From Acidiphilium sp. C61 (GTDB lineage Bacteria > Pseudomonadota > Alphaproteobacteria > Acetobacterales > Acetobacteraceae): a DNA stretch of 64,000 nt. Positions 280 through 55,356 of this stretch are shown here, one piece after another. The stretch is from contig NZ_CACTIA010000005.1 of assembly GCF_902712915.1 (NCBI RefSeq), positions 1,178,001 to 1,242,000 on the forward strand. The letters are read 5' to 3'. The position numbers and the translations under genes were made by a program. Each line of letters begins with the position of its first letter. Position 1 is the stretch's first letter. The notes beneath the pieces are model-generated. The model saw only the letters and a list, made by a program, of their open reading frames with translations, did no database searches and was not told where the DNA came from.

Positions 280-385
280 TAGAACACTTTCCGATCCTTT
301 CGGATCGGATGCAGCGCTCTATCTTGTTGATAAAGAGAGCATCTTTATCCGATCAGATGTTTCCATCCGATCGGATGATGCTCTA
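280..385 (+). repeat. Bipartite hairpin repeat, copy A (left and right modules)
   Basis: The left module (about 281-322) has outer arms AGAAC/GCTCT and inner arms CCGATCC/GGATCGG. The right module (about 334-385) is a longer palindrome with arms AGAGCATC/GATGCTCT outside and TCCGATCAGATG/CATCCGATCGGA inside. A linker TCTTGTTGATAA joins them. The final CTCTA gives the TAG stop of the minus-strand tonB gene at 383-385. The same architecture is found at 8329, 23586, 23727 and 37095, and half copies at 20041 and 55300. Confidence 0.85.
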
Positions 386-1135
386 ACGACTGCGCAGCCG
401 GATGAAGATCGTCACCGTGATCGGGTGGTGAGGCATATCCGACGAAAAGGGCGGCAGGTGAGTCGAATGCACGGCTGCAAGGGCAGCGCGATCGATCGGC
501 GGAGCGCCTGAGGAGCGTATCACGCTGGCCGAGAGCAGATGCCCATCGGGGGCGATGCGCAAGGCGAGCTCGGTGACCCCGGAAAGCTGCATCATCTCCA
601 CGATCCGCGGCACTTTGAGATCGGCCTGGACGGCAGCATGGACCGCACCGGCATAGGATTCGAGCGCAGTTTCCTGAACGGCAGCAGGCACCGGCTGCGG
701 CTTGGGAGGCGGCGGGGCGACGGGTTTGGGCACCGTACGCGGCAGCGGCTTCGGTTTCTGATGAACCACGTGATGCGGAACCGGGCGGGGTCGCGGCTTC
801 GGCAACGGCCGAGGCGGGGGAACCGGCACGGGCGGCTTCGGCAAAGGCGGCGGCGGTGGCGTCTGCGGCTTGGGAGGCGGCGGCAGCGGCTTCGGTGGCG
901 GCGGAACCGGCTTGGGCGGTGGCGGCAGCGGCTTCGGCTTTGGCGGCGGTGCCAGCATCTTGATCCGTGTGACCTGCGGATGCGGTGCGACCGCGACATG
1001 GCTCGGCGGCATATAGGCAACGAACAGAACCAGCCCGAGTTCAAGGGCCAGCGCCACGATGAGCGCGAGAGGAAAAGAGAAGCGATCTTCAGGCAAGGGG
1101 TTCATGCCATCACCGACGCCGCGAAAAGTGTTCAT
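383..1135 (-). CDS. tonB: TonB energy-transducing protein
   Basis: 250 residues with the classic TonB layout: a single N-terminal membrane segment (about residues 21-42), a long proline/lysine-rich periplasmic spacer (about 62-150, with many PPPPKP units), and a C-terminal TonB domain (about 175-250) containing the family's VTELALRIAPDG...VIRSSGAPPIDRAAL pattern. TonB links the inner-membrane ExbB/ExbD motor to outer-membrane receptors; no exbB/exbD genes are visible here. It lies downstream of, and in line with, a TonB-dependent receptor 203 bases away. The start is uncertain: Met1 at 1135 or Met11 at 1105, neither with a clear ribosome binding site. The stop codon is formed by the end of a hairpin repeat. 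Confidence 0.88.
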   Translation of the reverse strand: MNTFRGVGDGMNPLPEDRFSFPLALIVALALELGLVLFVAYMPPSHVAVAPHPQVTRIKMLAPPPKPKPLPPPPKPVPPPPKPLPPPPKPQTPPPPPLPKPPVPVPPPRPLPKPRPRPVPHHVVHQKPKPLPRTVPKPVAPPPPKPQPVPAAVQETALESYAGAVHAAVQADLKVPRIVEMMQLSGVTELALRIAPDGHLLSASVIRSSGAPPIDRAALAAVHSTHLPPFSSDMPHHPITVTIFIRLRSR

Positions 1136-1163
1136 GAAAACTCATGGTCTGATTGGAAGACAC

Positions 1164-1189
1164 CCGGCCGGATCATCACATCCGGCCGG
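1164..1189. terminator. Perfect 10-bp stem hairpin between receptor and tonB
   Basis: CCGGCCGGAT and ATCCGGCCGG are exact inverted repeats separated by 6 bases. The hairpin lies in the 203-base gap between the TonB-dependent receptor and tonB. No U-run follows on either strand, so it may be a pause, processing or attenuation structure rather than a simple terminator. Confidence 0.45.
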
Positions 1190-1338
1190 ATCGTCTCCGC
1201 GTGGGCAGAAGGGCGAGATCTGCGATCCTGCCCTTGAGGGCCCGGACGTGTTCCAGAACATCGCCCTGGCCGATGCCCCGCCGCGGCATAGCCGACAGCG
1301 GGGAGGCGGACCGGGATGCGGCAGTGGGATCGCAGGTT

Positions 1339-3777
1339 TCAGAAGTGGAAACCGACGCTGCCATAGATGGTGAACGGCGCACCCGGATAAGCAAGACGAT
1401 ATCCGCTGGTCGGCGTTCCAAAATAACCGCCGCTCGAAATGTATTCGAAGGCGTTATACTTGTCGCCGGTGATGTTGAGAGCCGTCAGCGAAACGTCCAT
1501 GGTCTTGTGCCCGGCGTAAGGCAGGTTGACCGGGACATTCAGCTTGGCAGACATGTTGAGCGTGCCGTAGCCAGCCATTTTCTGGTTGCTCGGCCCGGGG
1601 TTACCGCCAGGGCTCGACGCGCCGGTATTGTCGAACAGATACTGCGAGCCGGTGTACTGGTACCAGATCTTCGGCGTCAGAACCATCGAGCCAATCGGGA
1701 AATTGTAATACGCGCCGATATTGAGGTTCATGTCAGGCACGTAGGGAACGTGATAGCCGTTGAAATATTGCGGCGTATTCCCGGGCCCGGGATTGGCGTT
1801 GTAGCTCTGGTATTTCGCCTGGACAAAAGAGGCGTTGCCAAAGACGAACAGGTTGTAGATCGGGTTGTCGTTCGCGAACAGATTGACGCCCTGATAGACC
1901 GACGAACCCGTTGCGAAATACCCGTTGCCATTGATCTGAACGCTGAGCGACTGCTTCGCATAGCGGAGATGGAAATAATCCACTCCGGCGAGGAAGTGAT
2001 GCAGGAACGGACGGTTGTTCACATGGAATTTCAGGCCAGCATCGAAATACTGCCCGTATTCCAGGGCGTAGGTCGTGACCGGGTTGATCTTCTGGAACAG
2101 GCCGCCACCGCCGCCCACCTGCGGTGCACGGTACACGTCCGCGACGGTGCCATAGACCGCCATCCACGGCAGGACCTGGAAATTCGCCGACAGCGACGGC
2201 TCGACACCGTTGCGGCTGACATGCGCACCGCAGACCGAGCCCTGCTCGGTAACAGTGCCGGCGGTCGAAGTGCCGTTCAGGACGCACTTGGTGCTCAGTA
2301 CTGCGCCGGGAGCGAGCCCGAAATCCTGCTGCGCCGAGTCGCCATAAGAGGTCTGGAAGCTGACGAAGCGAATACCCGGCGTGATGTGCAGGCGCTGGAT
2401 GGGATGGATGTCATCCTGCAGGAAGAAGGCCACATCGGTCTGGCTGAAATATCCCGAGCGGACCTTGCCGCCGATATTCGCAATACCCTTGTTGCCGCCG
2501 TTCGCGGTGTTATAGAAATTGTTTCTTGAGTTATAATCGTCATGGATGACGTAGGCACCGACATCGACGGTGTTGAACGGCAGCTTCTCCGTAAGCCAGA
2601 GCTTGTCGCCGATCACGTCGGTATGCGGGTTGTTGTATTCCATCTGCTGCGGCCCGGCGCTGTAAATGTCGTTGAGCCGGGAATGGACGCGGGAGAAATT
2701 CTCGAAGTAGGTCAGGTTGTGCAGGGTCGTGTTGCGGTCGAGATTGATGTTTTCGCGGCCGAACACCATCCACAACGCGTCGGTGTCGAATTTCTCGTAG
2801 TTGGTGAAGCTCGGGGTGCTGTAGAAGCCCGAGCTCTGCTGGCTGTAGAGCGTGCCGGAAGTCCCGTTGGTGTAGACACCGGGCTGCACGGCGGTCGGGA
2901 TGACCGGAGTACGGTAGCCGGCGCTGCGGGCAAAGTAACCCCCGAACGCGACATCGCCGGCAGAGAAGGTCTTCACCGTCTTGAGGTAGATCGAATAGTT
3001 CTCGCTCGGGCTCTTGAACCCGTCAGGCGCGGTACGGAAGCTGTTGCCGTCGCCGGCACCGCCAGCAAGGATGGTCGACCAGCCGTGATAGGTGCCGGTG
3101 CGCAGGTCGAACTCGATGTTCTTCTGCCCATAGCTGCCATAGGTCATGTTGATGTCGCCGCCCGGCTTCGCCGTCGGCTGCAGCGGGGTGAACTCGATTG
3201 CGCCGCCGAAATTGTTATACCAGCGGTTGGCAGCCTCACCAGGACCATAGGTGGTGCTGACGCTCTGGATCATCCCGCTCTGCGGGATCATGTTCGACTG
3301 CCAGAGATTGGTGGACGGATCGACGACGGGAACGCCATCGAGCGTCACACCGAGCAGGCCGTCGGCGCTCAGCATGCTGCCATAGCCACCCCACCCCTGG
3401 GAAACGCCGTTCAGGGTGACGGTATATTTGGTGGACCCGGTGTTGCCGTAGCCGCTGACCTGCACGCCCGGCGCGTAGGACAGCATCTGCGCGGCACCCG
3501 CGACGGGGCCGGCGGCATCGAGAATCTTGCGGTTCAGCACGCGGGTCGTGGTGCCCGACTTGAAGACCTTCTTCTGGCTCGGCGCCACGGTGGCTCCCGC
3601 GACATAGCCGGTGCCGGCAGCACTCACCTCGCCGGCGCTGACCGTCTGCGCTTGTACCGCCACCGGAATGAGGCAGCTGGAAGAGAGAAGAAGCGCCACG
3701 AGGCGACGCTGCGCGACACGGCCGCCTGACCGGGTCGGCTCACGGTCGAGCGACCGGGCCTGCTGATAAAACCGCAC
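1339..3777 (-). CDS. TonB-dependent outer-membrane receptor
   Basis: 812 residues. A signal peptide (cleavage likely near residue 43, VQA|Q) is followed by a plug domain (about 75-200, with QMLSYAPGVQVSG and a TLDGVPV segment) and a long beta-barrel ending in the aromatic GFHF typical of outer-membrane proteins. Such receptors import scarce ligands, most often ferric siderophores, powered by TonB. The ligand cannot be read from the sequence. The start is a GTG at 3777 with AAGGGA 6 bases upstream. The tonB gene follows on the same strand, suggesting a shared transcript. The divergent gene is a MacA-like adaptor about 300 bases away. Confidence 0.9.
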   Translation of the reverse strand: MRFYQQARSLDREPTRSGGRVAQRRLVALLLSSSCLIPVAVQAQTVSAGEVSAAGTGYVAGATVAPSQKKVFKSGTTTRVLNRKILDAAGPVAGAAQMLSYAPGVQVSGYGNTGSTKYTVTLNGVSQGWGGYGSMLSADGLLGVTLDGVPVVDPSTNLWQSNMIPQSGMIQSVSTTYGPGEAANRWYNNFGGAIEFTPLQPTAKPGGDINMTYGSYGQKNIEFDLRTGTYHGWSTILAGGAGDGNSFRTAPDGFKSPSENYSIYLKTVKTFSAGDVAFGGYFARSAGYRTPVIPTAVQPGVYTNGTSGTLYSQQSSGFYSTPSFTNYEKFDTDALWMVFGRENINLDRNTTLHNLTYFENFSRVHSRLNDIYSAGPQQMEYNNPHTDVIGDKLWLTEKLPFNTVDVGAYVIHDDYNSRNNFYNTANGGNKGIANIGGKVRSGYFSQTDVAFFLQDDIHPIQRLHITPGIRFVSFQTSYGDSAQQDFGLAPGAVLSTKCVLNGTSTAGTVTEQGSVCGAHVSRNGVEPSLSANFQVLPWMAVYGTVADVYRAPQVGGGGGLFQKINPVTTYALEYGQYFDAGLKFHVNNRPFLHHFLAGVDYFHLRYAKQSLSVQINGNGYFATGSSVYQGVNLFANDNPIYNLFVFGNASFVQAKYQSYNANPGPGNTPQYFNGYHVPYVPDMNLNIGAYYNFPIGSMVLTPKIWYQYTGSQYLFDNTGASSPGGNPGPSNQKMAGYGTLNMSAKLNVPVNLPYAGHKTMDVSLTALNITGDKYNAFEYISSGGYFGTPTSGYRLAYPGAPFTIYGSVGFHF

Positions 3778-4081
3778 AATGAGTCCCTTTCCGATAGTGG
3801 GTTTTTTCAGACCATCTCGCCCGCAAGCCTGGGAGCGTGCGGGGGGTCTGATTGGTTCGGCGTGTAAGCAGACCGGACGAAAGGTTACAACGCGCCTGAG
3901 CAGCCACGCCCTTTGGTTTCACGGAAACTTCGTTGAAACGACCCCGAAATGTAACATTCGCGGTCCGCCCATTTTTAAACGGTTGATATGCGTCATGGCG
4001 GTGGGCGGCCCGCGATACGCAAGCTGCGAAGCGGTTTGCCGGCGGGCCGCTCCTTCGAATACGCCGTGCAGGAGACGACGC
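3778..4081. promoter_or_regulatory. Divergent intergenic region between receptor and macA
   Basis: About 300 bases without a supported gene. It must hold the promoters for the minus-strand TonB receptor and the plus-strand export operon. I see no convincing -35/-10 pair or Fur-box-like inverted repeat by eye. The reading frame of the downstream adaptor stays open through this stretch, but it lacks a plausible start with a ribosome binding site before 4082. Confidence 0.4.
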
Positions 4082-5278
4082 ATGAGCGGGACGCCGCGCG
4101 CGGAGACGAAGGGACGTTCGGGACGACGCGCGAAACGCACGACAATTCTGCTGGCGGTCGCGGCTCTCGCGGCAGCTGCGTTGTTCGGCTGGCAGGCACT
4201 ACAACGGAGGCGGCAAGTGCCTGCCTACATCACCGCCGCCATCACCCGTGGCAACATCGTCGAGGCCGTGACCGCGACGGGAACGGTGAACCCGGTACTC
4301 AGCGTGATCGTCGGCTCCGCGGTTTCGGGGATCATCCAGTCGATCGACTGCGACTACAATACGATCGTGCGGCTCGGGCAGGTCTGCGCGCGGATCGATC
4401 CCCGCCCCTATCAGGCCGTGGTCGACCAGGATATCGCGGCGGTGGCGGTGGCGCGGGCGCAACTCTCCAAGGATGCCGCCGGGCTCGACTACGCGCGGCG
4501 CAACGCAAGCCGGCTCGCCGCACTGGCGCCGCGTCAATACGCCTCGCGCAATGCTGCCGACAGCGCGGAGGCCGCGATGCGCCAGGGCGTGGCGCAGACC
4601 GCGCTGGACCGGGCGGTGATCGCGCAGGATGAGGCCAGGCTTGCCGCCGCCCGCGCCAATCTCGGCTATACCGACATCGTCTCGCCGGTGAACGGCATCG
4701 TCGTTTCCCGCAACGTGACGATCGGGCAGACGGTGGCAGCCTCGTTCCAGACCCCCACACTCTTCCTGATCGCCACCGACCTGACGCGGATGCAGGTGGA
4801 TACCAATGTCAGCGAGGGCGACATTGCCGGCATCCGGGCCGGCGAGACGGTGCAATTCACCGTGCTGGCCTTTCCGGGAAAGATGTTCGAAGGGCGGGTG
4901 ACGCAGGTTCGCCAGTCGCCGCAGACGGTGCAGAACGTCGTGACCTACGATGTCGTGGTGGCGATCGATAACCGCGACCTCGCACTGAAGCCGGGCATGA
5001 CCGCCTCGGTCAGGATCATCACCGCATCGCGTGAAAATGTGCTGCTCGTGCCGGGCCAGGCACTGCGCTTCCTCCCCGCGGGCGCGGCCGGCGGACCGGA
5101 GGCGGGTGCGCGGGTCTGGATGCTGCGGGCTGGCCGGCCGGTTGCCGTGCCGGTGGAGACCGGGCTTGCCGGCGACAGCCAGACCGAGATTGCCGGCGGC
5201 GGGCTGCGGGCGGGCGATGCGGTGATCATCGGCGAGCGGCAGAAGCGCCCTGGCTCGCCCTGGGTGCCGCGGTTCTGA
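4082..5278 (+). CDS. MacA-like periplasmic adaptor of an ABC export system
   Basis: 398 residues from the ATG at 4082, which has GGAG 8 bases upstream. One N-terminal membrane anchor (about residues 20-38) is followed by the membrane-fusion-protein layout: lipoyl halves (GNIVEAVTATGTVNP near the start and LGYTDIVSPVNGIVVSR in the middle) around an alpha-hairpin, then a beta-barrel and membrane-proximal domain. It would bridge the inner-membrane MacB-like protein, encoded 10 bases downstream, to an outer-membrane channel. No outer-membrane factor is in this operon; the TolC-like gene at 12.5-13.9 kb belongs to another pump. Substrate unknown (macrolides, peptides and lipids are known for the family). 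Confidence 0.88.
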   Translation: MSGTPRAETKGRSGRRAKRTTILLAVAALAAAALFGWQALQRRRQVPAYITAAITRGNIVEAVTATGTVNPVLSVIVGSAVSGIIQSIDCDYNTIVRLGQVCARIDPRPYQAVVDQDIAAVAVARAQLSKDAAGLDYARRNASRLAALAPRQYASRNAADSAEAAMRQGVAQTALDRAVIAQDEARLAAARANLGYTDIVSPVNGIVVSRNVTIGQTVAASFQTPTLFLIATDLTRMQVDTNVSEGDIAGIRAGETVQFTVLAFPGKMFEGRVTQVRQSPQTVQNVVTYDVVVAIDNRDLALKPGMTASVRIITASRENVLLVPGQALRFLPAGAAGGPEAGARVWMLRAGRPVAVPVETGLAGDSQTEIAGGGLRAGDAVIIGERQKRPGSPWVPRF

Positions 5279-5288
5279 GGGCGGTGGG

Positions 5289-7382
5289 ATGACGGCGGCA
5301 CCGGTGATCCAGCTGCGCGGAATCGGCCGACTCTATGGCAGCGGCGGGTTCGCGGTACACGCGCTGCGCGATGTCGATCTTGTGATCGAACGCGGCGAAT
5401 TCGTCGCCATCATGGGGTCGTCCGGATCGGGGAAATCGACGCTGATGGCCATTCTCGGCTGTCTCGACCGTCCAAGTTGCGGCGAATACCGCTTCGAGGG
5501 CGTCGATGTCGCCGGGCTGGCCGAGCCGGCCCTTGCGGGGATCCGCAGCGCGCGGATCGGCTTCGTGTTCCAGAGCTTCAACCTCCTCGCCCGCACCAGC
5601 GCGCTCGACAATGTGGCGCTGCCGCTCGTCTACGCCGCGGCGGGGCCGGTGGATGGTGCTGCACGGCGGGCGCGGGCGCGGACGGCGCTCGGCCGCCTCG
5701 GCCTCGCCGGGCGGGAGGCCAACACGCCGGCCCAGCTTTCGGGCGGGCAACAACAGCGCGTGGCGATCGCGCGGGCGCTGATCAACGCGCCGCAGCTGCT
5801 GCTGGCCGACGAGCCGACCGGCAATCTCGATACCAGGACATCGCATGAAATCATGGCGACGCTGGCGGCGCTGAACCGCGAGCAGGGAGTCACGATCCTG
5901 GTGGTGACCCATGAGCAGGACATCGCGCGCTATGCGCGACGTGTGCTGACCATGCGCGACGGTCGGATCGTGGCGGACGAGCGGCAGGACGCACCGGCCG
6001 GACCGTCACCCTTGCCGGCGGCAGCAGAACCCGCGCCGGCCGCAGCCCCGGCCCGTGCGGGCAGTGGCGCCGCGCTCGGCTTCGTCCGCATGATTGTCGC
6101 GGCGGCACTCCAGGCGCTGGCGCGCAACCGGCTTCGGGCGGCTCTGACAATGCTGGGCGTGTGCATCGGTGTCGCCGCGCTGATCGCCATGGTCGCGGTT
6201 GGCCAGGGCGCGAATCAGGCGATCCGCAAGCAGATCGAGGGGCTCGGCACCAACCTGCTGGTCGTGCTGCCGGGTGCGACGACGGCGGGCGGCGCCCATG
6301 CCGGGTTCGGCAGCGCCTCGACGATCACGGTGGACGACGCGCGGGCGATCCTGCGCGAGGATCCGGCGGTGGGCCGGGTCGGCTACCTGATCCGCGCCGC
6401 CGCCCAGGTGCGCCATGCCAGCCGGAACTGGACCACGGCGATCCTTGGCGTCAGTCCCGACTATCCCGCGATGACCAACTGGCGGATTGCCGAAGGGCGG
6501 CCGCTCACCTCGCATGACGAGGCCGCCGGCGCACTCGTCGGGCTGATCGGGCAGACGGTGCGGCAGATGCTGTTCGCCCGCGGAGAGACGGCGCTCGGCG
6601 CCACCATGCTGGTGAAAGGCGCACCGATCCGCATCGTCGGCGTGCTCGCCGCCAAGGGGCAGACGCCTTTTGGCACCGATCAGGACGATGTCGTGATGCT
6701 GCCCTTCAGCACCGCCGAGCAGCGTGTGCTCGGCGCCGCAGCACCAAGCCGGGAGGAAACGCCGCTGAACTGGCCCTATCCGCCCTGGCCGAACCCTTAC
6801 GCACTGCAACCCCGGCTCGCCGGCTATGTGAACCAGCTCTTCGCACAGGCGACGACACCGGAGGCCGTGCCGGAGGCGATGGAACAGATCGGCCACACGC
6901 TCAGCCTTCGCCACCGGATCCAGCCGGACGGGCTTAAGGATTTCTCGGTGCGCAATCTGAGCCAGATCGCCGCAGCGGCGCAGGGATCGAGCCGGGTCAT
7001 GGCGCTGCTTCTCGCCATCGTCGCCTCGATCTCGCTGCTGGTCGGCGGCATCGGGATCATGAATATCCTGCTCGTCTCGGTCACCGAGCGGACCCGCGAA
7101 ATCGGGCTCAGAATGGCGATCGGGGCGCGGCGGCTGCATGTTCTGCTGCAGTTTCTCGCCGAATCGGTGATCCTGAGCGTGACCGGCGGGCTGGCCGGCA
7201 TCGTGCTCGGCGCCACGCTTTCGGGCGCCATCACGCTGTTCGCCGGCTGGCCCGCGCCACTCTCCCCGCTGGCGGTGGCGGGAGGTTTCCTGTTCGCCGC
7301 CGGCGTTGGCGTGGGGTTCGGCTTCTACCCCGCCCGCAAGGCATCGCGGCTCGATCCGATCGAGGCGCTGCGCTACGAGTAA
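5289..7382 (+). CDS. MacB-like ABC transporter, ATPase fused to permease
   Basis: 697 residues. The N-terminal ATPase has Walker A (GSSGSGKST, about 42-50), the signature LSGGQQQRVAIARAL (about 150-165) and Walker B LLLADEPTGNLD. The C-terminal permease has a first membrane helix near 286-306, a large periplasmic MacB-type domain (about 310-560), and three more helices from about 570 to the end, including the conserved SISLLVGGIGIMNILLVSVTERTREIG segment of the FtsX/MacB family. It follows the MacA-like gene by 10 bases and the two should form one tripartite exporter. The loop between ATPase and permease is Pro/Ala rich. The family normally acts as a dimer, transmitting ATP-driven movement to the periplasm. 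Confidence 0.93.
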   Translation: MTAAPVIQLRGIGRLYGSGGFAVHALRDVDLVIERGEFVAIMGSSGSGKSTLMAILGCLDRPSCGEYRFEGVDVAGLAEPALAGIRSARIGFVFQSFNLLARTSALDNVALPLVYAAAGPVDGAARRARARTALGRLGLAGREANTPAQLSGGQQQRVAIARALINAPQLLLADEPTGNLDTRTSHEIMATLAALNREQGVTILVVTHEQDIARYARRVLTMRDGRIVADERQDAPAGPSPLPAAAEPAPAAAPARAGSGAALGFVRMIVAAALQALARNRLRAALTMLGVCIGVAALIAMVAVGQGANQAIRKQIEGLGTNLLVVLPGATTAGGAHAGFGSASTITVDDARAILREDPAVGRVGYLIRAAAQVRHASRNWTTAILGVSPDYPAMTNWRIAEGRPLTSHDEAAGALVGLIGQTVRQMLFARGETALGATMLVKGAPIRIVGVLAAKGQTPFGTDQDDVVMLPFSTAEQRVLGAAAPSREETPLNWPYPPWPNPYALQPRLAGYVNQLFAQATTPEAVPEAMEQIGHTLSLRHRIQPDGLKDFSVRNLSQIAAAAQGSSRVMALLLAIVASISLLVGGIGIMNILLVSVTERTREIGLRMAIGARRLHVLLQFLAESVILSVTGGLAGIVLGATLSGAITLFAGWPAPLSPLAVAGGFLFAAGVGVGFGFYPARKASRLDPIEALRYE

Positions 7383-7446
7383 GCGGCGGCAGACGGATTG
7401 ACAGCGCCCGGCCTCGCATCGCAAACACGGCGCGCGCGGCCCGCCC

Positions 7447-7500
7447 GCGCCGGTGATGGGGTTCGCCGCAAACCGCCCGCGGGGCTGATGACTCCTGTTT
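7447..7500 (+). ncRNA. Fluoride riboswitch (crcB motif)
   Basis: The sequence GGTGATGGGGTTCGCC, followed by AAACCGCC, then GGCTGATGACTCCTG, reproduces the conserved core of the crcB RNA in the right order and spacing. The pieces are the GATGG strand, the UUCGCC closing arm, the AAACCGCC pseudoknot strand and the CUGAUGaCUCCU 3' element. It lies about 130 bases upstream of crcB and 65 bases after macB. In the known class, fluoride binding stabilises the pseudoknot and turns on expression of fluoride export or tolerance genes. The genes downstream (crcB, DUF190) fit exactly. Confidence 0.9.
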
Positions 7501-7533
7501 CGTTCCGTCAGTCGCGGAGGAGCAGGCGCGCCC

Positions 7534-7632
7534 ATGACCCAACCTTGCCGAACGGATTTCGCGGCCCACGCCGCCGCCGTTCCCCCTCCCCGCAATTCAA
7601 GTGTTTCGCCACGACAGGAAGGCAGTTCATGA
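7534..7632 (+). CDS. Possible 32-residue leader ORF coupled to crcB
   Basis: Between the fluoride riboswitch and crcB an ATG at 7534 (GGAGGAG about 12 bases upstream) opens a 32-codon frame starting MTQPCRTDFAAHAAAV. Its TGA stop overlaps the crcB start as ATGA. This is the arrangement expected for a translationally coupled leader peptide. It has no recognisable family, and in GC-rich DNA such a frame could be chance, so I hold it loosely. Confidence 0.25.
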   Translation: MTQPCRTDFAAHAAAVPPPRNSSVSPRQEGSS

Positions 7633-8006
7633 TCAAGACGCTTGCGTCCATCGCCGTGTTCGGCTCGCTCGGCTGCTGGGCGCGCTACGGCCAGACGATC
7701 TTCATGCAGGGCCTGTTCGGCCGCGGCTTCCCCGTCGCCGTTCTCAGCATCAACGTGCTCGGTTCGTTTGCGATCGGGTTCCTTTTCGTGCTGACGGCCG
7801 AGCGCGTCGCCATCGATCCGGCGTTGCGCACCGGCATCCTCACCGGGTTTCTCGGCGGATACACCACCTTCTCGACCTTCGAGCTCGAATCCCTCATGCT
7901 GGTCGAGAACGGCGAGATCGCGAAAGCGGGGCTCTATGTGCTGCTGTCGGTCGTGCTCGGGTTCATCGGCGCCTTTCTCGGCGTCTATCTGGCAAGGAAT
8001 GTCTGA
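7629..8006 (+). CDS. crcB: Fluoride channel CrcB/Fluc
   Basis: 125 residues with four membrane segments and the CrcB signature: GCWARYG near the N-terminus, the INVLGSFAIGFL segment with its conserved Asn, and GFLGGYTTFSTFELE with the Na+-site GGxTTFSTF motif. CrcB proteins work as antiparallel dimers that let toxic fluoride leave the cytoplasm. The start ATG has AGGAAGG upstream. A fluoride riboswitch lies in the leader and a DUF190 gene follows by one base, so regulation by fluoride is strongly implied. Fluoride tolerance is relevant to acidic habitats, where HF enters cells. Confidence 0.95.
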   Translation: MIKTLASIAVFGSLGCWARYGQTIFMQGLFGRGFPVAVLSINVLGSFAIGFLFVLTAERVAIDPALRTGILTGFLGGYTTFSTFELESLMLVENGEIAKAGLYVLLSVVLGFIGAFLGVYLARNV

Positions 8007-8007
8007 G

Positions 8008-8331
8008 ATGGAAGAACAGGCCACACTGGTGCGCATCGCCCTCGACGAATCCGATCACGGACGGCGGCGCCATCTGATGCAGACGATCCTGGAGCGGCTG
8101 CGCGATGATTTTGCGCTCGACGGGGTTTCCGTGTTCCGCGGCATTGCCGGAATGAACGGGCAGCGGATCATCCATGCCGCCGACCTGATGCATTTTGATG
8201 TCGACCTACCGCTGATGATCGAATTCTGCTGCCCGCCGGACGTTGCCCGCGCGGCCGCGGCGTCACTCACCGATCTGGTGCCGGACGGGCATGTGATTTC
8301 CTGGCCGGTTACCCGTCATCGGCCGGGGTAG
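8008..8331 (+). CDS. DUF190 family protein
   Basis: 107 residues, soluble, with the DUF190 features HGRRRHLMQTILERLRD, GVSVFRGIAGM and DLPLMIEF; the fold is PII-like. DUF190 genes are repeatedly found beside crcB. Here the gene follows crcB almost directly, downstream of the fluoride riboswitch, so a supporting or regulatory role in fluoride handling is likely but unproven. I chose ATG 8008 because AAGGA lies 9 bases upstream; an in-frame ATG at 7999 overlaps the crcB end but sits too close to that site. The TAG stop is formed by the first bases of a hairpin repeat. Confidence 0.85.
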   Translation: MEEQATLVRIALDESDHGRRRHLMQTILERLRDDFALDGVSVFRGIAGMNGQRIIHAADLMHFDVDLPLMIEFCCPPDVARAAAASLTDLVPDGHVISWPVTRHRPG

Positions 8332-8434
8332 AGCGCCTTCCGATCCTTCTCGATCGGATGTCGTGCTCTATCCTGTTGGTCATCAGAGCATCTTTATCCG
8401 ATCAGATGAGTCCATCTGATCCGATGATGTTCTG
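8329..8434 (+). repeat. Bipartite hairpin repeat, copy B, between two convergent genes
   Basis: Left module about 8330-8370 (AGAGC...CCGATCC...GATCGGATG...GTGCTCT), linker ATCCTGTTGGTCATC, right module about 8385-8433 (AGAGCATCTTTATCCGATCAGATG / CATCTGATCCGATGATGTTCT). Its left end is the TAG stop of the DUF190 gene. On the other strand the right module is translated as the last residues of the RND pump, whose TGA stop lies at 8383-8385 in the linker. It could act as a two-way terminator. Confidence 0.85.
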
Positions 8435-11400
8435 ACGAGGCACAGCAGCGCCGGCAGGGCGAACAGCACCAGCGGAAACGCAACCGCGAATCCCGAGATC
8501 ACCGCGATGGCGAGCGGCTGCTGCATGCCGCTGCCCTCGCCGATGCCGAGTGCGAGCGGCAACAGCGTCAGGATCGCGGCAAGCGTGGTCATCGCGATCG
8601 GGCGCAGCCGGTTCCGGCTTGCCGCAACCAGCGCCTCGCGGGGAGCCTGATGCGCGGCAAGGCTCTGGTATTCCGAGATGTAGAAAATCGCCATTTCGGT
8701 CGCGAGCCCGACGATCATCGTCATCCCCATCAGCGCGGTTATGTTGAGCGCCACACCCGAGAGATCGAGCCCGATGAACACCGCAAGGCTCGAGAGCAGC
8801 GCGGTGGCGACGATCGCCCCGGCGATGACGAAGCTGCGATAGAGGAACAGCAGCAGCACGAACTCGGCCAGCACGGCGGCGACGAACACGCGGGCAAGGC
8901 CGATGAATGCCTTCTGTTGCTGGCGGTAGAGCCCGCCAAGCCGGTAGCTCATGCCCGCCGGCAGCAGTCCAGGCTGCGCCAGCACGCGGCGCACCGAAGC
9001 AATCGCCGCGGAAATGCCGCCGCCGCTGATCCGCCCCGTTACCGCGACGATCTGACGCAGATTGTCGCGGGCGATCTCCGGCCGGCCCGACACCGTCTTC
9101 AGCGTCGCGAACGCCCCGAGCGGCACCAGCGCGCCGGAGGGTGCGGCGAGCGGCAGGCGCAGCAGATCGTCGGTCTGCGCGAAGGCATCGCGCGGCAGTT
9201 CCAGCCGCACGCCGGTAAACCGATCCTGGCCCGGCAGCGCGGTGACCACGCTGCCGCGCAGCGCCGTCGCCACCAGCCGCTCTACGGCGGCGGGATCGAA
9301 GCCAAACATCGCCGCCTTCGCAGGATCGACATGGATGTCGATCGAGTCCCCGGCGATCACCACGCCGTCCTGCACGCCCACCACGCCCGGAATCCGGCCG
9401 ATCGCCGCTGCCACCCGCTTCGCCGTTTCATCCAGCCGCGCCGGGTCGCCATGCAGCTCGATCTCGATCGGCTCCGGCTGGCTGACAAGATCGCCAAGCA
9501 GGTCCGACATCAGCTGCGATTCGTCGAAATCGATGCCCGGCACACGGTCGGTGATCCGCTGGCGCAGCCGGTCCATCACCGTCCAGATCGGCGGTCGCTG
9601 CCCGAGCGGGCGAAGCTGGACGAAAATGTCGCCCTGATACGGCTCGTTGAGGTCGCCGCCGAGCCCGGCGCCGAGCCGGGTCGACCATGTCGCCACCGCC
9701 GGATCGGCGCGGAGAATATCCCCCACCTGGCGGATCTCGCGCGCCCCCTCGTCCAGCGAGGTGCCAGGACGCGCCTGGTAGTTGATCACGAACCCGCCCT
9801 CGTCCATCCGCGGCATGAAGCCGGTCGGCACCGCCGAATAGGCATAGGCGCCAGCCAGCACGAAGGGCACCAGCGCCACCAGCAGCCAGGCTGGCCGCCT
9901 CACCACAAGGTCGAGCACCCACCCATGCGTCCGCGCCAGCACCGACTCACGCGCGCCGCCGCCCGCGACCGGGTCGTGCCATTTGTCGAAATCGATCAGC
10001 CAGCGCGCCAGCACCGGCACCGCGAAGGCCGAGAACAGCCAGGAGGCGATCAGCGTGGAGGCCATGGTGATCGATAGCGCCTTGAAGAAGGCGCCGGTCA
10101 CGCCGGAGAGGAAGGCAAGCGGGACGAACACGATCAGCGTCGCCAGCGACGAGCCGGCAAGCGGTGCCAGGAATTCCTGCGCCGCCGCCAGCACCGCGCC
10201 GCGCGCCGCGATCCCGCCCGCGCGCCCGGCCCGCCGCGCGACATGCTCGATCATCACGATCGCATCGTCGATCACCAGCCCCACCGCCGCGGCAAGGCCA
10301 CCCAGCGTCATGATGTTGAAACTCATCCCCAACAGCGTGAGGATCAGCACCGCGGTCGCCATCGAGGCCGGCAGCACCAGCAGCGCGATCAGCGTGACAC
10401 GCCAGCTCCGCAGGAAGCCGATCAGCACCAGCCCTGCCAGCACCACGCCGATCGCGATCGCATCGCGGACCGAGCCGGCGGCAGCGGTCACCAGCGTGCT
10501 CTGGTCGTACCATTTCACCAGCCGCACGCCCGCCGGCAGCCGGGTCTCATAGGCCGCGAGCGCGCGGCGCACCGCTGCATCCACCTGAACGGCGTTGCCG
10601 CTGGGCTGCTGGAAGACCTGCAACGTCACCGCGCGGTGATTGTTCTCGCTCACCCGGTAATAACGCGGCACCCGGCCCATCTCGACCCGTGCCACCTGCC
10701 CGAGCCGCACCACCCCGTCCGGCCCGCCGCCGACCACGATCCGCCGCACCTGCGCCATGGTTCGCAGCGTGTTCTGCTGCACCACCAGATAAAGACTGTC
10801 ATGATCGGCGAGCCGGCCGACCGAGGCGAGCACGTTCGACCGCGATACCGCCTGCTCGACACTCGTCAGCGTCACATGCATCGCGGCGAGCTTCGCCGGA
10901 TCGACGACGACATGCACCTCCGGCGTGTCGCCCCCCTGCACGCCGATCTTGGCCACACCGGGAATCCGCTCGAGTACCGGGACGATGTGATATTGCGCGA
11001 TCGTCCTGAGATCCGCCTCCGAAATGCTGTGCGAGATCAGCGCATAGGCGATGATGGGAAACACGGTCGGGTCCATCCGCCGCACCACGTAGCGCGTGCC
11101 CTTGGGCAGGTCGGGCAATTGCTGCGCCAGCGCGGCGTCGACCTCGAGCGTTGCCGCCCGCATGTTGGTTCCCCAGTCGAAATCGATGAAAGCCTGCATC
11201 GATCCGCGCGAGGTGGTCAAGCGCACACCGCGCACGCCGGGCAGCGCCCGCAACGCCTGCTCGACCGGCTGGGTCACCTGCAGCATCATCTGATGCGCCG
11301 GCCGCGCCCCTGAATCGATGTTGATCCGCACCCGCGGGAACGAGGTGCGCGGGAACAGCCCCACTGGCAGGGATACCGCGCTGACCGCCCCGGCCAGCGC

Positions 11401-19849: not shown

Positions 19850-20169
19850 GCCGCGCCCCCTGAGCGCTTGATCGAAGCGCTTGATCGAGCGGACGAAGTC
19901 CAGCCTTTCCTGCACCTCGCTGATGGCGGGTGCCGTGGCCGGCTCGCCGAGCGACTTTCCCTCGTACACCGCCTCGAATTTCAGCGAATGCGCTCGGCGG
20001 CCCCAGGAATTGCAGAGGTCCACCGGCGCGTCGCGAATACAGAGCATTACATATCGCGCCACCGGGATCGGAAAATGCTCTGGCGCCGCCCCGAACTCGG
20101 CTGGACGCCCCCGGTCAGCACCTTGATCAGCGCCGTCTTGCCCACACCGCCGCCGCCTGATTTAACCAT
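19850..20169 (-). pseudogene. Degraded stretch with a P-loop remnant, broken by a half repeat
   Basis: On the minus strand an ATG at 20169 opens MVKSGGGGVGKTALIKVLTG, a clear Walker A motif followed by a piece resembling the start of an ABC or other P-loop ATPase (LTGGVQPSSGR). It then runs into a hairpin half repeat (20041-20082) and stops at 20047. In another frame an open stretch of about 63 codons continues to 19832 (FEAVYEGKSLGEPATAP) without a recognisable domain. I read this as remains of a gene, not a working one. The original identity is uncertain; sugar-ABC ATPases and ParA-like proteins are both possible. Confidence 0.4.
20041..20082 (-). repeat. Hairpin repeat, left module only (copy F)
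   Basis: Read on the minus strand it is AGAGCATTTTCCGATCCCGGTGG...ATGTAATGCTCT, the same outer AGAGC/GCTCT arms and CCGATCC core as the left module of the complete copies. Here the right module is missing. It lies inside the degraded P-loop stretch, just where its reading frame breaks. Confidence 0.7.
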
Positions 20170-23570: not shown

Positions 23571-23585
23571 GCCTGCCTGCAAGCC

Positions 23586-23689
23586 AGAGCACGGCCCGAT
23601 CCCGATGGATCGGATATGGCGCCCTATCATACTGATAAAACAGAATCTTTATCCGATCAGACAACCCCGTCTGATCGGACGATGCTCTG
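23586..23689 (+). repeat. Bipartite hairpin repeat, copy C1
   Basis: Left module AGAGCACGGCCCGATCCCGATGGATCGG..., linker ATCATACTGATAAAAC, right module AGAATCTTTATCCGATCAGAC / GTCTGATCGGACGATGCTCT. It starts 16 bases after the pqqC stop. Its arms differ at several bases from other copies, with changes on both sides of the right-module stem (GACA...GTC), so pairing is kept. Confidence 0.8.
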
Positions 23690-23726: not shown

Positions 23727-23769
23727 TAGAGCACTTTCCGATCCGGCTGGATCGGATGTAGTGCTCTAG
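23727..23769 (+). repeat. Hairpin repeat copy C2, left module, interrupted by the IS element
   Basis: TAGAGCACTTTCCGATCCGGCTGGATCGGATGTAGTGCTCTAG is a complete left module. It ends in CTAG, the 4-base sequence that is repeated on the far side of the IS element at 24589-24592, where the linker and right module of the same repeat continue. Confidence 0.85.
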
Positions 23770-23782
23770 GGTTTGTGGGGAT

Positions 23783-24169
23783 TCATCGTGAGTTGATGAC
23801 GGCTGCGGCGAGGTAGATCATTGCCTGGAAGCTCTGGTCTGTTTTGCAGGCGCGCAGGGCGATGCGTTTGAACTCTTTGAGCTTGCAGAAGAAATTCTCG
23901 ACCAGATGACGCCATTTGTAGATTTCGCGGTCGATTTTCAGCTTCAGTGCCCGGGCCGGATGCTGGGAAATGACGACCCGGGCGCCTCTTTCGTTGAGTT
24001 CTGCGACCAGAGCGTTGCTGTCGAATGCCTTGTCTGCGATCAATCCACCGAATTCGACGTTGTCGATCAGTGGCGGGACCTCGATGCCGTCATGGCGATT
24101 GCCCGGCATGAGACGAAAGCGCACAAGGTTGCCCAGGGCATCCGTCAGCGCCAGGATTTTGGTTGTCAT
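23783..24169 (-). CDS. IS5-family transposase, second frame (OrfB)
   Basis: About 128 residues counting from the first internal Met (MTTKILALTDALGN); the coding frame is open back to the frameshift site near 24206. It carries the second catalytic Asp (GLIADKAFDSN) and the catalytic Glu in RHLVENFFCKLKEFKRIALR, the Y/R-x2-E-type signature of IS5 transposases. It has no ribosome binding site of its own and should be made only as a fusion with the first frame. Confidence 0.88.
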   Translation of the reverse strand: MTTKILALTDALGNLVRFRLMPGNRHDGIEVPPLIDNVEFGGLIADKAFDSNALVAELNERGARVVISQHPARALKLKIDREIYKWRHLVENFFCKLKEFKRIALRACKTDQSFQAMIYLAAAVINSR

Positions 24170-24186
24170 GCCACCTTTGGAACAGC

Positions 24187-34468: not shown

Positions 34469-35048
34469 GCGCAGAGACCGGCGACCAGCACGGGACCGCA
34501 AATCTGCCGTAGCTGTGCAGCTTGTCTGCGCACTGACCCTCGGACTGGCGCTTGTTGCCGGGACTGCCCATGGCCAGACCCCATCGTCCGTGCCGTCCTT
34601 TACCGCAACGGATATCAAGGTTCTCAACAAGCTGTTGATATTCCTGCGCCCGGCAGTAAAAGCCAACGGAATCATTGCAATCGCGTATCGCTCGGGCAAT
34701 GCAGCGTCGAAAGCCGACGCTGAAGCGATCGCAGCAATGATCGGCCATGGCTTCATGACAGGCACCGCCCATCTCCGACCGGTTCCGGTCCCGGCAAACC
34801 GGCTGTTGGCAGACAAGTTCGAGATCATAATCCCGGCCGATGAAACGCCGATGCAGGAGGTGGCAGCGGCATCGGCGTCGCATCACGCGCTTTGTGTTAC
34901 CTCGCACGTTGCGCGGGTGCGGGCCGGAACATGCACGCTTGGTATCGTGTCGCAACAACGGGTGACAATCGTCCTGAACACGAAAGCCGCACATCGCGCC
35001 GGAGTGAGTTTCGCTGCCGCGTTGTTATTGATGATCGAGGAAGTATGA
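34452..35048 (+). CDS. YfiR-like (DUF4154) periplasmic protein
   Basis: 198 residues; it starts inside the end of the GGDEF-EAL gene (Met1 at 34452 or Met4 at 34461). A signal peptide ending VAGTAHGQ|T is followed by a small domain with a late CVTSHVARVRAGTCTLGIVSQQRVTIVLNTKAAHRAGVSFAAALLLM, which resembles the INLKAAKRAGLKFSSKLL ending of YfiR proteins. In the Yfi system of Pseudomonas, YfiR is a periplasmic repressor of a membrane diguanylate cyclase. The gene order cyclase-YfiR-receptor fits such a role here. Similarity is judged by eye. Confidence 0.65.
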   Translation: MPHMLERRDRRPARDRKSAVAVQLVCALTLGLALVAGTAHGQTPSSVPSFTATDIKVLNKLLIFLRPAVKANGIIAIAYRSGNAASKADAEAIAAMIGHGFMTGTAHLRPVPVPANRLLADKFEIIIPADETPMQEVAAASASHHALCVTSHVARVRAGTCTLGIVSQQRVTIVLNTKAAHRAGVSFAAALLLMIEEV

Positions 35049-37093
35049 TGCGGCAGCAACATCGCAGATCGGCTCGTGCGATCATTCAGGTAGCCCTGCT
35101 CGCCTCTCTGGCTCTCATGGGACGGGCCCATGCGCAGATCTTCCCCTATGGCCAGCTGGAACAGGTATTCGGCGCACCCGTGACCGCGGCTGCAACAGGC
35201 ACACCTCAGCTCGCGAGCGATGCTCCCGCCAATGTAGTGATTATTACCCAGCGACAGATCAGGCATTCGGGAGCGATTTCGATCCCCGGGGTTCTGAAAT
35301 ATGTCGTCGGACTCAACGTGCGCCCCTATACCATGACCTCACCCGAAATAGGGGTTCGAACCTACAACCAGCCATACAATCCGCGCCTCCTCGTGCTGCT
35401 GAATGGCCGACAGGTTTATCTCGACGATTTCGGCCACGTCGTCTGGAGTTCGATTCCGGTTCAACTCTCGGAAATCCGGCAGATCGAGGTTATCAAGGGG
35501 CCGGCGACGGCACTGTATGGGTTCAACGCCGTTGACGGCGTGATCAATATCGTGACCTACGACCCTCTCGACGATCGGGTGAACAGAGCCGACGTATACG
35601 GCGGTACCCAGAGCCAATACGGAGCCTCCCTCGTTGGTACTGCCCATGTCGGGCGAATGGGTATTCGCCTCTCGGCTGGAAGCTATCTGGCCGAACCAAA
35701 ATACAGTTCCGCCCTGCAACGTCCCGACACCGTCTCGCTGCTCAAGCCCCAGAACGAAGAGGTTCACCTTTCGACGCGCACGGCGCTCAGCCCCGGCGTC
35801 AGTCTTTATGCCAGCCTGAGCTACAGTTACGGCAAGATCCCGAGCGAGACTGTCGCGCCGATTTTCAGCACGCTCTTCCTCTATACAAATTCGCAGAGGG
35901 TCGAGCTTGATGCGGATACCAGGATCGGGCGGATCAGCCTGAATGCCTATCGCAACGGATTGCAGGCAAATATCGCAATTCCGTTATTTGTTTTGCCCAA
36001 CAATCTGATGCAGCAGCGCGTCTATGTCCTGCAAGCGACTGATTTGATCAGGGCATCCCGCAATCACGTCATCAGGCTGAGCCTCGAATATCGAAACAAC
36101 GCCGCGCATTCCCTTGGCTTTCTCGGCGGGACAGTCCGCTACCAGGACATCGCCGCCGACGCGACCTGGACATGGCACCTCGCTCCCTCAATCTCCCTGA
36201 CGAACGCGGTACGGGTTGATGATCTCTGGCTGGGATATGATGGCGTGCCAATCCCGACTTCCGGCCTGACTGCACAGCAGATCGGCCACGGCGGTTTCAC
36301 GGCACTCAGCTTCAATTCCGGCCTCGTTTACAAGCCGACGACGGTTGATACGCTCCGCCTCCTGCTCGGCCAGGGTGTACAGGCGCCAAGCCTGGTCGAT
36401 TCCGGCCTGCAAATAGGCACGGGGCCGCTAGGTCTGGTGGGAGCGACCGGCAATCCATATCTAAACCCGATGATCGTCGATAACGCCGAACTCGATTGGA
36501 CCCGGGAGCTTCCCGCCCTGCATTCGGCGCTCCATACCGCGCTTTTCATCGAGCGTGACAACAACATCATCAGTTCGCCGGCCAGCGGTGTCATTGCGCC
36601 GATATCCTCATCCTCGGTGATCCTCGCGGCCGAGAATACCGGCTGGTCCGAAGCGGGGGGTGGGGAAATCTCGCTGAAGGGCCATACGAGATCGGGCTGG
36701 CGCTGGTCGCTTGGATTCGCCTACGAAGACACGTTCGCCCGAAAGATCGGTAACTACCACATTGCATTCGCGAGCAACAGCAATCTGTTTTCGACCGTTC
36801 CACGTGACAGCGTGGTCGCCCATCTCGGGCGCACATGGGGCCGCTTCGATTTCGATGCCTACGGAAGCTGGCAGTCTTCCTATCGCGACATCACCTTAAC
36901 AACGACGATGACGCCTTTCGTCCCGGTAACGATCGGAAGCAATTTCACCTTCGACGCGCGGGTGGCCTATCATCTCACCAACCATGTCACCCTGTCGGTC
37001 GTCGGACAGCAGCTCAATGCGATCCGCATTGCCTCGACCCCGGGGCCTTACACAAACCGCCAGGTTATCGTTCAGCTGACAGCCCGTTATTAA
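35045..37093 (+). CDS. TonB-dependent receptor, colicin I receptor-like
   Basis: 682 residues from the ATG at 35045 that overlaps the YfiR-like stop; a longer frame exists upstream but runs through the preceding gene. Signal peptide to about residue 31 (GRAHA|Q). The plug has ANVVIITQRQIRHSGAISIPGVLKYVVGLNV, PRLLVLLNGRQVYLDDFG, and IRQIEVIKGPATALYGFNAVDGVINIVT, all classic. The barrel is short for the family and ends VQLTARY. The three-gene unit (c-di-GMP enzyme, YfiR-like, receptor) suggests that receptor occupancy or envelope state influences c-di-GMP. The ligand is unknown. Confidence 0.9.
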   Translation: MMRQQHRRSARAIIQVALLASLALMGRAHAQIFPYGQLEQVFGAPVTAAATGTPQLASDAPANVVIITQRQIRHSGAISIPGVLKYVVGLNVRPYTMTSPEIGVRTYNQPYNPRLLVLLNGRQVYLDDFGHVVWSSIPVQLSEIRQIEVIKGPATALYGFNAVDGVINIVTYDPLDDRVNRADVYGGTQSQYGASLVGTAHVGRMGIRLSAGSYLAEPKYSSALQRPDTVSLLKPQNEEVHLSTRTALSPGVSLYASLSYSYGKIPSETVAPIFSTLFLYTNSQRVELDADTRIGRISLNAYRNGLQANIAIPLFVLPNNLMQQRVYVLQATDLIRASRNHVIRLSLEYRNNAAHSLGFLGGTVRYQDIAADATWTWHLAPSISLTNAVRVDDLWLGYDGVPIPTSGLTAQQIGHGGFTALSFNSGLVYKPTTVDTLRLLLGQGVQAPSLVDSGLQIGTGPLGLVGATGNPYLNPMIVDNAELDWTRELPALHSALHTALFIERDNNIISSPASGVIAPISSSSVILAAENTGWSEAGGGEISLKGHTRSGWRWSLGFAYEDTFARKIGNYHIAFASNSNLFSTVPRDSVVAHLGRTWGRFDFDAYGSWQSSYRDITLTTTMTPFVPVTIGSNFTFDARVAYHLTNHVTLSVVGQQLNAIRIASTPGPYTNRQVIVQLTARY

Positions 37094-37094
37094 C

Positions 37095-37196
37095 GCTTCA
37101 TCCGATCAGATGGAGGCACCTGATCGGATAAAGATGCTTTGTTTATCGATGTGGAAGAGCACGACATCCGGCCCAGCAGGATCGGAAATTGCTCTA
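37095..37196 (-). repeat. Bipartite hairpin repeat, copy D, opposite orientation
   Basis: Read on the minus strand: AGAGCAATTTCCGATCCTGCTGGGCCGGATGTCGTGCTCT, a linker CCACATCGATAAACAA, then AGCATCTTTATCCGATCAGGTGCC / CATCTGATCGGATGAAGC. It begins 1 base after the TAA of the plus-strand receptor and lies between it and the convergent gshA. The left module has lost one arm pair (GGCCGG for GGATCGG). Confidence 0.8.
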
Positions 37197-44546: not shown

Positions 44547-44548
44547 CC

Positions 44549-53700: not shown

Positions 53701-53727
53701 GCCGGATTGACCGAGGAGCGCTGAACC

Positions 53728-55302
53728 ATGGCAGGGCCGGCTGCGCACGAGGAGGAAATGCAGCTCAGCGGGCTGCCACGAGCGATCGTGACGATCGGCT
53801 GCATGATCGGCACGCTGATGCAGGCGCTGGACGCGACCATCGCCAACGTCTCGCTGCCCTACATGCAGGGCTCGCTCTCGGCCTCGTATGACGAGATCAC
53901 CTGGGTTCTGACCTCCTACGTGATCGCCGCCGCGATCATGACCGCGCCGGTCGGCTGGCTCGCCGCGCAGTATGGGCGAAAGAACATCTTCCTGATCTCG
54001 CTGATCGGCTTCACCGTCAGCTCGATGATGTGCGGCGTTGCCACCTCGCTCGGCGAGATGGTACTGGACCGGCTGCTGCAGGGCATGTTCGGCGCAGCAC
54101 TGGTGCCGCTCAGCCAGTCCACCATGCTGGACATCTACCCGGTCGAGAAGCGCGGCTCGGCAATGGCGATCTGGGGCGTCGGCGTGATGATCGGGCCGAT
54201 CCTGGGGCCGACGCTGGGCGGCTATCTCACCTATTTCTATGACTGGCGCTACGTGTTCTTCGTCAACGTGCCGTTTGGCATCGCCGCCCTGCTGGCGCTC
54301 GGCGCCTTCATGCCGAAGCGGGCGAAGCGGCCGGCAAGCGGGCATTTCGACTGGACCGGCTTTGCCGTGCTGTCGCTCTTTCTCGGCTCGCTGCAGATCA
54401 TGCTTGACCGCGGGCAGGAAAAGGACTGGTTCGGCTCGCCGGAAATCGTCACCTTCGCGGTGCTGGCTGTCATCGGGCTCTACCTCTTCATCGTCCACAT
54501 GATGACGGCGAAGGCGCCGTTCATCCCGCGCGGCGTGTTCGCCGACCGCAACCTTAATGCCGGACTGATCACCATGTTCGCGGTCGGCTCGGTGCTGCTC
54601 TCCTCGGCAACATTGATGCCGCCCTTCCTGGAAAAGCTCGGCAACTACCCGGTGGAGACCGCAGGCCTCGTGATGGCGCCTCGCGGCATCGGCACGATGG
54701 GGGCGATGATGCTGGCCGGGCGGCTGGCCAACAAGATCGATCCGCGGGCGCTGATGGCGGCGGGCTTTGCGCTGCTCGTCATTTCCTTCTGGATGATGCA
54801 GCAATGGCTGCCATCATCGCCGCAGGGCTACATGATCGAAACGCTGATCGTGCAGGGAATGGGGCTCGGCTTCGTGTTCACGCCGCTTCAGGTGGTCGCC
54901 TTCTACACCCTACCGCAGGCGCTGCGCACACAGGGAACTTCGCTGCTCAGCCTGATGCGCAATATCGGCATGGCGGTCGGTATTTCCGTCACCGAGGCGG
55001 TGCAGGTGCAGATGGCGCAGGTGAACCACGCGACACTGGCCGACCACGTGACACCGTTCAGCCGCAACCTTCAGGTTGGGGGCGCGGTATCGCACATGCT
55101 CAATCCCCTCACCCATGCCGGCGCCGCGCTGCTCAACGCAACCCTTGACCAGCAGGCGCAGATCATCTCGTTCATCGACTCGTTCAAGTTCATGATGATC
55201 GTGAGCATTCCAACCATGTTCTGCCTGTTGCTGATGCGCCGCCCGCCGCGCGCCGCCATGGCCGGAACGGTGGAAAAGCCGGAAATGGCGGTCATGGAAT
55301 AG
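53728..55302 (+). CDS. emrB: EmrB-like MFS multidrug transporter (DHA2, 14 helices)
   Basis: 524 residues with about 14 membrane helices. LDATIANVSLPYMQGSLSASYDEITWVLTSYVIAAAIMTAPVGWLAAQYGRKNIF carries the DHA2 motifs, followed by the antiporter motif C region GVGVMIGPILGPTLGGYLT. GAGGAG lies upstream of the ATG. With the adaptor it should export hydrophobic drugs or fatty acids against protons. The TAG stop coincides with the start of a half hairpin repeat. Confidence 0.93.
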   Translation: MAGPAAHEEEMQLSGLPRAIVTIGCMIGTLMQALDATIANVSLPYMQGSLSASYDEITWVLTSYVIAAAIMTAPVGWLAAQYGRKNIFLISLIGFTVSSMMCGVATSLGEMVLDRLLQGMFGAALVPLSQSTMLDIYPVEKRGSAMAIWGVGVMIGPILGPTLGGYLTYFYDWRYVFFVNVPFGIAALLALGAFMPKRAKRPASGHFDWTGFAVLSLFLGSLQIMLDRGQEKDWFGSPEIVTFAVLAVIGLYLFIVHMMTAKAPFIPRGVFADRNLNAGLITMFAVGSVLLSSATLMPPFLEKLGNYPVETAGLVMAPRGIGTMGAMMLAGRLANKIDPRALMAAGFALLVISFWMMQQWLPSSPQGYMIETLIVQGMGLGFVFTPLQVVAFYTLPQALRTQGTSLLSLMRNIGMAVGISVTEAVQVQMAQVNHATLADHVTPFSRNLQVGGAVSHMLNPLTHAGAALLNATLDQQAQIISFIDSFKFMMIVSIPTMFCLLLMRRPPRAAMAGTVEKPEMAVME

Positions 55303-55356
55303 AGCAGGTTCCGATCCATCCGGATCGGATGCCGTGCTCTATCTTGCTGGTCATTT
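55300..55356 (+). repeat. Hairpin repeat, left module and linker only (copy E)
   Basis: TAGAGCAGGTTCCGATCCATCCGGATCGGATGCCGTGCTCTA, then TCTTGCTGGTCAT, matching the linker of copy B (TCCTGTTGGTCAT). The right module is absent. The first TAG is the stop of emrB and the TCA in the linker is the TGA stop of upp on the other strand, so both convergent genes end in the repeat. Confidence 0.8.

Follow-up and report, generated by a model that had tools for sequence, protein, structure and literature searches.

The window, a stretch of 64,000 nucleotides from Acidiphilium sp. C61, contains a repeat that is very probably a non-autonomous DNA transposon (a MITE), best explained by an IS630-family transposase acting on it in trans. 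That it is a MITE which duplicates TA is well supported by the comparison of filled and empty sites, and IS630 is its likely driver, as judged from the resemblance of the end sequences. The same two-hairpin shape, composed of different letters, occurs in other alphaproteobacteria. An unexpected feature is that the element's TAG often serves at the same time as a gene's stop codon. Alphaproteobacterial intergenic DNA commonly contains short palindromic repeats, which are largely unexplained; PMC2573895 speaks of dozens "of unknown function" in rhizobial genomes. With YTAR as a target rule, GAGCRNNNTCCGWTC as defined ends and a transposase family that can be named as likely, the origin of a large group of such repeats can be put to the test, and the stop-codon placement indicates how a TA-targeting element can multiply in a dense, GC-rich genome, leaving the genes unbroken and many 3' ends rewritten.

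The element consists of a left hairpin of 42 bases, a linker of about 15 and a right hairpin of about 49, for a total of 106 bases; the mobile unit is about 102 bases, with TA flanking it on each side. This agrees with the two palindromic modules and linker described in the first-pass annotation, with the correction that the 5' arm of the right module contains a conserved 3-base T bulge. All seven locations given there were confirmed, also by cmsearch (Table 1): four copies are full, a fifth is interrupted by an IS, and the two half copies consist of the left module only. Matches to the core word TATCCGATCAGATG with up to 3 mismatches number 18, compared with a shuffle mean of 4.85 (0 of 100 shuffles reaching 18), and the copy at 280 has a fold of -44.7 kcal/mol (z -6.35), which none of 200 shuffles equaled. 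The description of arms that differ and yet mostly pair holds in most copies, but not in the half copy at 20041, whose fold is weak (-12.9 kcal/mol). An Rfam scan of the window at gathering score gave no match for the repeat and found a fluoride riboswitch alone (RF01734, 49.2 bits), which lies at 7443-7504, upstream of ORF 7398/7601-8077 and the DUF190 gene. Separately, weak covariance matches (E 0.005 and 0.05) are seen at 1126-1255 over a CCGGCCGGAT palindrome; they probably reflect chance or a very decayed copy.

Table 1. Copies of the repeat in the 64,000-nucleotide window, and the element nested in one of them
Feature	Position	Strand	Remarks
Full copy	280-385	+	Minus-strand TonB-domain ORF 383-1135 stops in right-hand TAG (complement of 383-385)
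Full copy	8329-8434	+	TAG 8329-8331 is the stop of DUF190 ORF 7936-8331; site empty in relative G001, which has a single TA there
Half copy, left module only	20041-20082	-	Weak pairing; missing from the matching place in G001 (region diverged)
Full copy, 105 bases	23585-23689	+	TA decayed on left and right
Left module of IS-split copy	23727-23768	+	
Right module of IS-split copy	about 24605-24655	+	
IS5-like element	23770-24588	-	Inverted ends GGTTTGTGGGGATT, CTAG on both sides; bounds by eye; not part of the repeat
Full copy	37091-37196	-	Overlaps and adjoins TAA stop 37091-37093 of TonB-receptor ORF 34892-37093
Half copy, left module and linker start	55300-55342	+	TAG 55300-55302 is the stop of MFS ORF 53728-55302

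Insertion of the element can be read directly from sites that are filled in one genome and empty in another. A contig of the MAG SKS3.bin60 (G001) is collinear with most of 347-63998 of the window, in blocks that are 88-94% identical. At the copy at 8329, the window reads GGGG-TA-(element)-TG-ACGAGG and G001 reads GGGA-TA-ACAAGG; at the place matching 55300, G001 has no element and a different stop codon. A search of G236, another relative, with the joined flanks of G001 copies (six, plus part of a seventh) gave matches across the junction at six copy sites, and five of the G236 empty sites are readable, each with a single TA (L181, L183, L184, L187 and L188). (In L184, L187 and L188 the aligner placed its gap off the junction, and these were re-read by eye; L185 was unreadable and was dropped.) Together with 8329, target duplication and an empty site are therefore found at six readable sites. 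One of the two TAs has become CA or TG in three of these six comparisons; in L183 the left TA is now CA, as it is in L188, which also has a small indel beside it. In 106 copies with distinct flanks, a pyrimidine (C or T) precedes TA in 90% of cases on the left side and in 91% on the right; the target is thus symmetric, YTAR. Inside TA, both ends have G in 95-97% of copies, a figure subject to the selection of this set, which excludes matches short of both ends or more than 2 penalty points from TAGAGC/GCTCTA and so biases those six bases but not the base outside, which varies. L184, with T preceding its left TA and C its right one, fits a duplication of TA alone rather than of CTA or YTAR.

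Members of the IS5 family also target YTAR, and the repeat could accordingly be pictured as a MITE moved by an IS5-family transposase. The shared target favors this idea, as does the presence in the window of an IS5-like element at the CTAG of one copy. (The profile match of this element to NF033580 is 107.4 bits, with a cut-off of 110, and its transposase is spread over two ORFs.) However, duplication of YTAR would give the same four bases on both sides, which is not what the variable outside base and the nearly constant G inside TA indicate, and the ends of the IS5-like element differ from those of the repeat, so that such an origin is very improbable. An early reading of the ends as those of IS5/IS1031 was abandoned because the empty sites show TA alone. 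The insertion point of the IS5-like element is a CTAG that is formed at the edge of the left module; CTAG is a rare word in such genomes, and by creating it the repeat ends may attract other IS.

Insertion at TA with duplication of TA has been established for ISY100, an IS630 element, as described in PMC2170065, whose references also include work on a preference for the TA within CTAG. Read inward, the ends of the repeat give the consensus GAGCRNNNTCCGWTC, with GAGC at both ends in 36 of 59 rows and TCCG and TC conserved behind it (the 23 rows without GAGC near one end were excluded from the consensus, and L226 is misplaced). An IS630 of G236, among the PF13358 loci, has the ends TA-GAGCGTATTTCGATC and TA-GAGCGGCTTTCGACC, and a partial IS630 copy in the same genome, 99% identical, ends in GAGCGTATTCCGATC. 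TA-flanked GAGC ends are present in five of eight plasmid IS630 loci, from five genera, and were not found in the other three (L212, L213 and L217). TA-flanked ends were recovered for 10 of 42 IS630 loci, six of the ten having GAGC and four being unrelated. Mismatches to the motif at the two ends are 0 and 2 in L257, 1 and 2 in L197, 4 and 1 in L263, 1 and 3 in L270 (whose genome has no match to the repeat), 4 and 4 in L268, and 5 and 5 in L272; given GAGC, the remaining eight positions would have one mismatch or none by chance with a probability of about 0.0013 per end. Within a single genome, IS630 ends with 0-2 mismatches to the motif are seen in G236 and with 0 and 2 in G060, and most other genomes gave either no such ends or no ends to compare. 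PF13358 is present in 24 of 31 copy-bearing versus 18 of 29 copy-free genomes (Fisher p 0.26), and was not found in G001, G043 and G004, all of which are copy-rich (drafts lose IS copies). Because the presence of IS630 does not significantly track that of the repeat, its role as the driver is one that we infer. In the proposed process, an IS630-family (Tc1/mariner-like) transposase would act in trans to cut the GAGC ends, and the cut ends would then be joined to a new TA, which would become duplicated. Each of the two hairpins, placed on either side of the linker, is a palindrome of an end sequence, and every lineage carries a variant of its own whose two stems for the most part remain paired. 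The similarity of left and right ends within one element is slightly greater than in shuffles (6.64 of 12 vs 6.20, p 0.011).

The same hairpins could instead belong to a REP/REPIN-type or IS200/IS605-derived repeat, in which case a Y1 (RAYT-type) tyrosine transposase would bind them and act on single strands. Two hairpins joined by a linker resemble a shrunken IS200/IS605 element; one plasmid copy of the repeat (L036) lies 64 bases downstream of an IS200/IS605 tnpA; and, at any single site, a one-sided insertion 3' of TA would yield an identical filled sequence. However, the target of Y1 elements is one-sided and the preference seen here is symmetric, and the IS beside L036 ends, by eye, in a different hairpin. 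Its position is thus a matter of neighborhood only, and a causal tie to L036 was rejected. A RAYT-type transposase, which the first-pass annotation had suggested looking for, is absent in the form of PF01797 from 27 of the 31 copy-bearing genomes, the domain being present in the other four as weak matches and in 1 of 29 copy-free genomes. We regard a Y1 origin as extremely improbable. Of the earlier description of the repeat as REP/MITE-like, the MITE part is supported by the inverted ends, the TA on both sides and the empty sites, and the RAYT/REP part lacks such support.

As is typical of a MITE, the element is short (106 bases), without coding capacity, and dispersed, with tens of matches per genome in G001, G236 and others. 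Its novelty had been made to depend on a genome-wide count larger than a few copies, and relatives provide this: there are 96 matches in G001 and 41 in G236, with partial matches and reverse-strand matches of the palindromic model included. An exact 20-base pattern gave 35 stretches in 6 assemblies, including full bipartite copies (backed by nhmmer and alignment): 23 in SKS3.bin60, 5 in Rhodovarius lipocyclicus, 3 in Nguyenibacter vanlangensis, 2 in an Acetobacteraceae MAG, 1 in an Alphaproteobacteria MAG, and 1 in a Rhizobiaceae-group MAG, the last of these outside the acetic acid bacteria. A covariance model built from 29 copies (R1) matches 31 of 60 sampled genomes of the family to which G001 belongs, and a broader model (R2), under more stringent filtering and with the scoring of 13 candidates in each genome, matches 39 of 289 sampled genomes of the class. 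The single plasmid record with an element similar to that of the window was from A. multivorum. Also outside the acetic acid bacteria, pT173e of Ensifer canadensis has 5 matches, the anatomy being clear in L220 and L222; the seven further plasmid records in the same search gave none, as did phage records with one copy as the query and viral contigs with one exact pattern. Across lineages, TAGAGC..GCTCTA is kept on the outside and the second hairpin is kept, the linker core is TTGTTT or TTGAT in most copies, and lengths range from 100 to 138. In L241, L246 and L247, the first hairpin, the type of linker and the ends are alike and the second hairpin is of the type GAACCGG..CACTTCG, which resembles palindromes that are common in rhizobial intergenic DNA.

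The letters of the stems vary between lineages, and their pairing is mostly retained. In alignment A1, 22 cells have changed on both sides and still pair, compared with 5.5 on average in shuffles; the covariation score of 0.092 compares with 0.044 in shuffles. Such figures are inflated by the relatedness of the copies, and 25 of 500 shuffles matched the number of further pair types. No double change is seen in the inner left stem, where 80.6% of cells are paired. The suggestion that the folded form looks selected thus finds partial support, from covariation above that of shuffles, but not in the inner left stem. Pairing may be kept by selection or, alternatively, by templated correction of the palindromes. 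The 3' arm of the right hairpin in L018 and L033 reads ATAAAGATGCTCT, which fills the T bulge and gives a perfect palindrome, possibly through templated correction. Pairing that persists in many lineages, together with the paired double changes, would also fit a functional RNA or gene-end element (an mRNA 3' hairpin, a stabilizer or a processing site) that is kept by selection, its mobility being a thing of the past. However, the inner left stem fails to provide double changes, and the distribution is patchy, with matches to the R1 model in 5 of 13 genomes of the genus of G001 and with empty sites present. A transcription terminator, which the first-pass annotation had offered as an alternative, finds no support in the sequence: there is no T run 3' of the hairpin in the two copies scanned, which speaks against an intrinsic terminator, and these two copies are not among the six terminator-like sites in 1-10000 of the window, a number no greater than in shuffles.

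The placement of the element at gene ends bears on the same question. TA plus the first G of the element makes the stop codon TAG, at either end. Among 198 ends that have 700 bases or more of flank, 60 (27 left, 33 right) coincide with the end of an ORF of 200 aa or longer whose stop codon is precisely the TAG or TAA of the element, and all other offsets from -100 to +39 combined account for 57; four ORFs of the window stop in this way (Table 1). A coding-like ORF of at least 150 aa stops in the element in 22 of 49 Acidiphilium copies, in 2 of the 22 at both ends, and coding-like ORFs that reach the edge do so in frame 0 in 24 cases and in the other frames in 2 and 4. By comparison, a rough gene call places stop codons at 11 of 116 YTAR sites that lie outside coding interiors, giving a binomial P of about 1e-10 if the copies were independent, which they are not fully. 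(The ORFs in these counts are mechanical, and insertions shared by descent, such as L143/L002, are counted twice.) At 8329, L181 and L187, the relative has, by eye, a TAA or TAG at the position that the TAG of the element occupies in the filled site. This excess at stop codons would suit a functional RNA; however, the two ends are used about equally, which indicates no orientation towards genes, and when all of these observations are considered, that explanation is unlikely. For an IS630-driven MITE, TA sites within TAA or TAG would be harmless places in dense GC-rich genomes, and insertions there would for this reason be kept. More tentatively, the repeats may be portable gene ends across the class: a MITE driven by IS630 might be retained because its own TAG replaces the stop and its strong hairpins follow, for one or both of two convergent genes, such that a selfish element became a mobile 3' end whose paired shape is selected, with the rhizobial two-palindrome repeats as branches of the same family.

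The closest known systems are RUP by mechanism and RIME by shape. RIMEs (Rhizobium-specific intergenic mosaic elements, attributed to Osteras in 1995) are reportedly 108 bp long, with two large palindromes, and so resemble the repeat in size and shape, a comparison made by description and not by sequence; copies with the present anatomy lie on an Ensifer replicon (L220 and L222). The earlier statement that the repeat matches no known repeat has to be qualified in view of these same-shape elements on a rhizobial replicon and the Rhizobium RIMEs named in print. Correia/NEMIS elements of Neisseria form a long-range stem rather than two separate hairpins. According to the accessible text of PMC2229807, they are like the repeat in having about 107 bp, TA at the termini and stem-loop transcripts, and unlike it in their 24-bp inverted ends and sequence. 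RUP of Streptococcus pneumoniae, a MITE that depends on IS630-Spn1, is likewise 107 bp long, with about a hundred copies, insertion at TA, inverted ends that resemble those of an IS630 in the same genome and a folded transcript, but it has other ends, another sequence and a Firmicute host; the accessible text of the same source does not mention a two-module anatomy or stop-codon placement. GTAG/CGTC REPs are also dispersed palindromes, but are described in the available part of PMC3733652 as 20-40 bp long with a one-sided tag; their partner, a RAYT-type transposase, is mostly absent from the repeat-bearing genomes, and CGTC repeats are reported there to be missing in Acetobacteraceae. A link of RIME to IS630 or to stop codons was not found in the accessible portions of the literature citing it, nor was the element found in those of the literature on Methylobacterium, E. 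meliloti and Thiomargarita, or elsewhere in the literature search (most subscription papers lay outside its reach; accessible parts of PMC3049150, PMC2680597, PMC2245857, PMC5994717 and PMC4853749 were also drawn on).

Copies of the element also occur in arrays. In SKS3.bin60, pairs of the exact pattern are spaced 104 bases apart in L001, L010 and L020, some at contig ends; this period equals 102 plus one shared TA, as expected if a copy inserts into the TA beside another. Pairs spaced 64 bases apart (L005 and L024, same MAG) fit repeats of the linker plus right hairpin. Since the ends of the element offer new YTAR/CTAG sites, both tandem copies and the nesting of other elements alongside are accounted for. 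A second TA-flanked repeat, with the ends GTGTCC..GGACAC, is present in L150, L151 and L157 (G236), and its ends flank the element in L053, L059, L128, L134, L137, L138 and L144; at least 13 of the 106 copies, counted by eye, abut GTGTCC or GGACAC across TA. In G236 this repeat three times separates two neighboring copies of the element by about 116 bases, with a start-to-start distance of 222. Its ends match those of the IS630 in L199 (Nguyenibacter), and it is probably another IS630 MITE.
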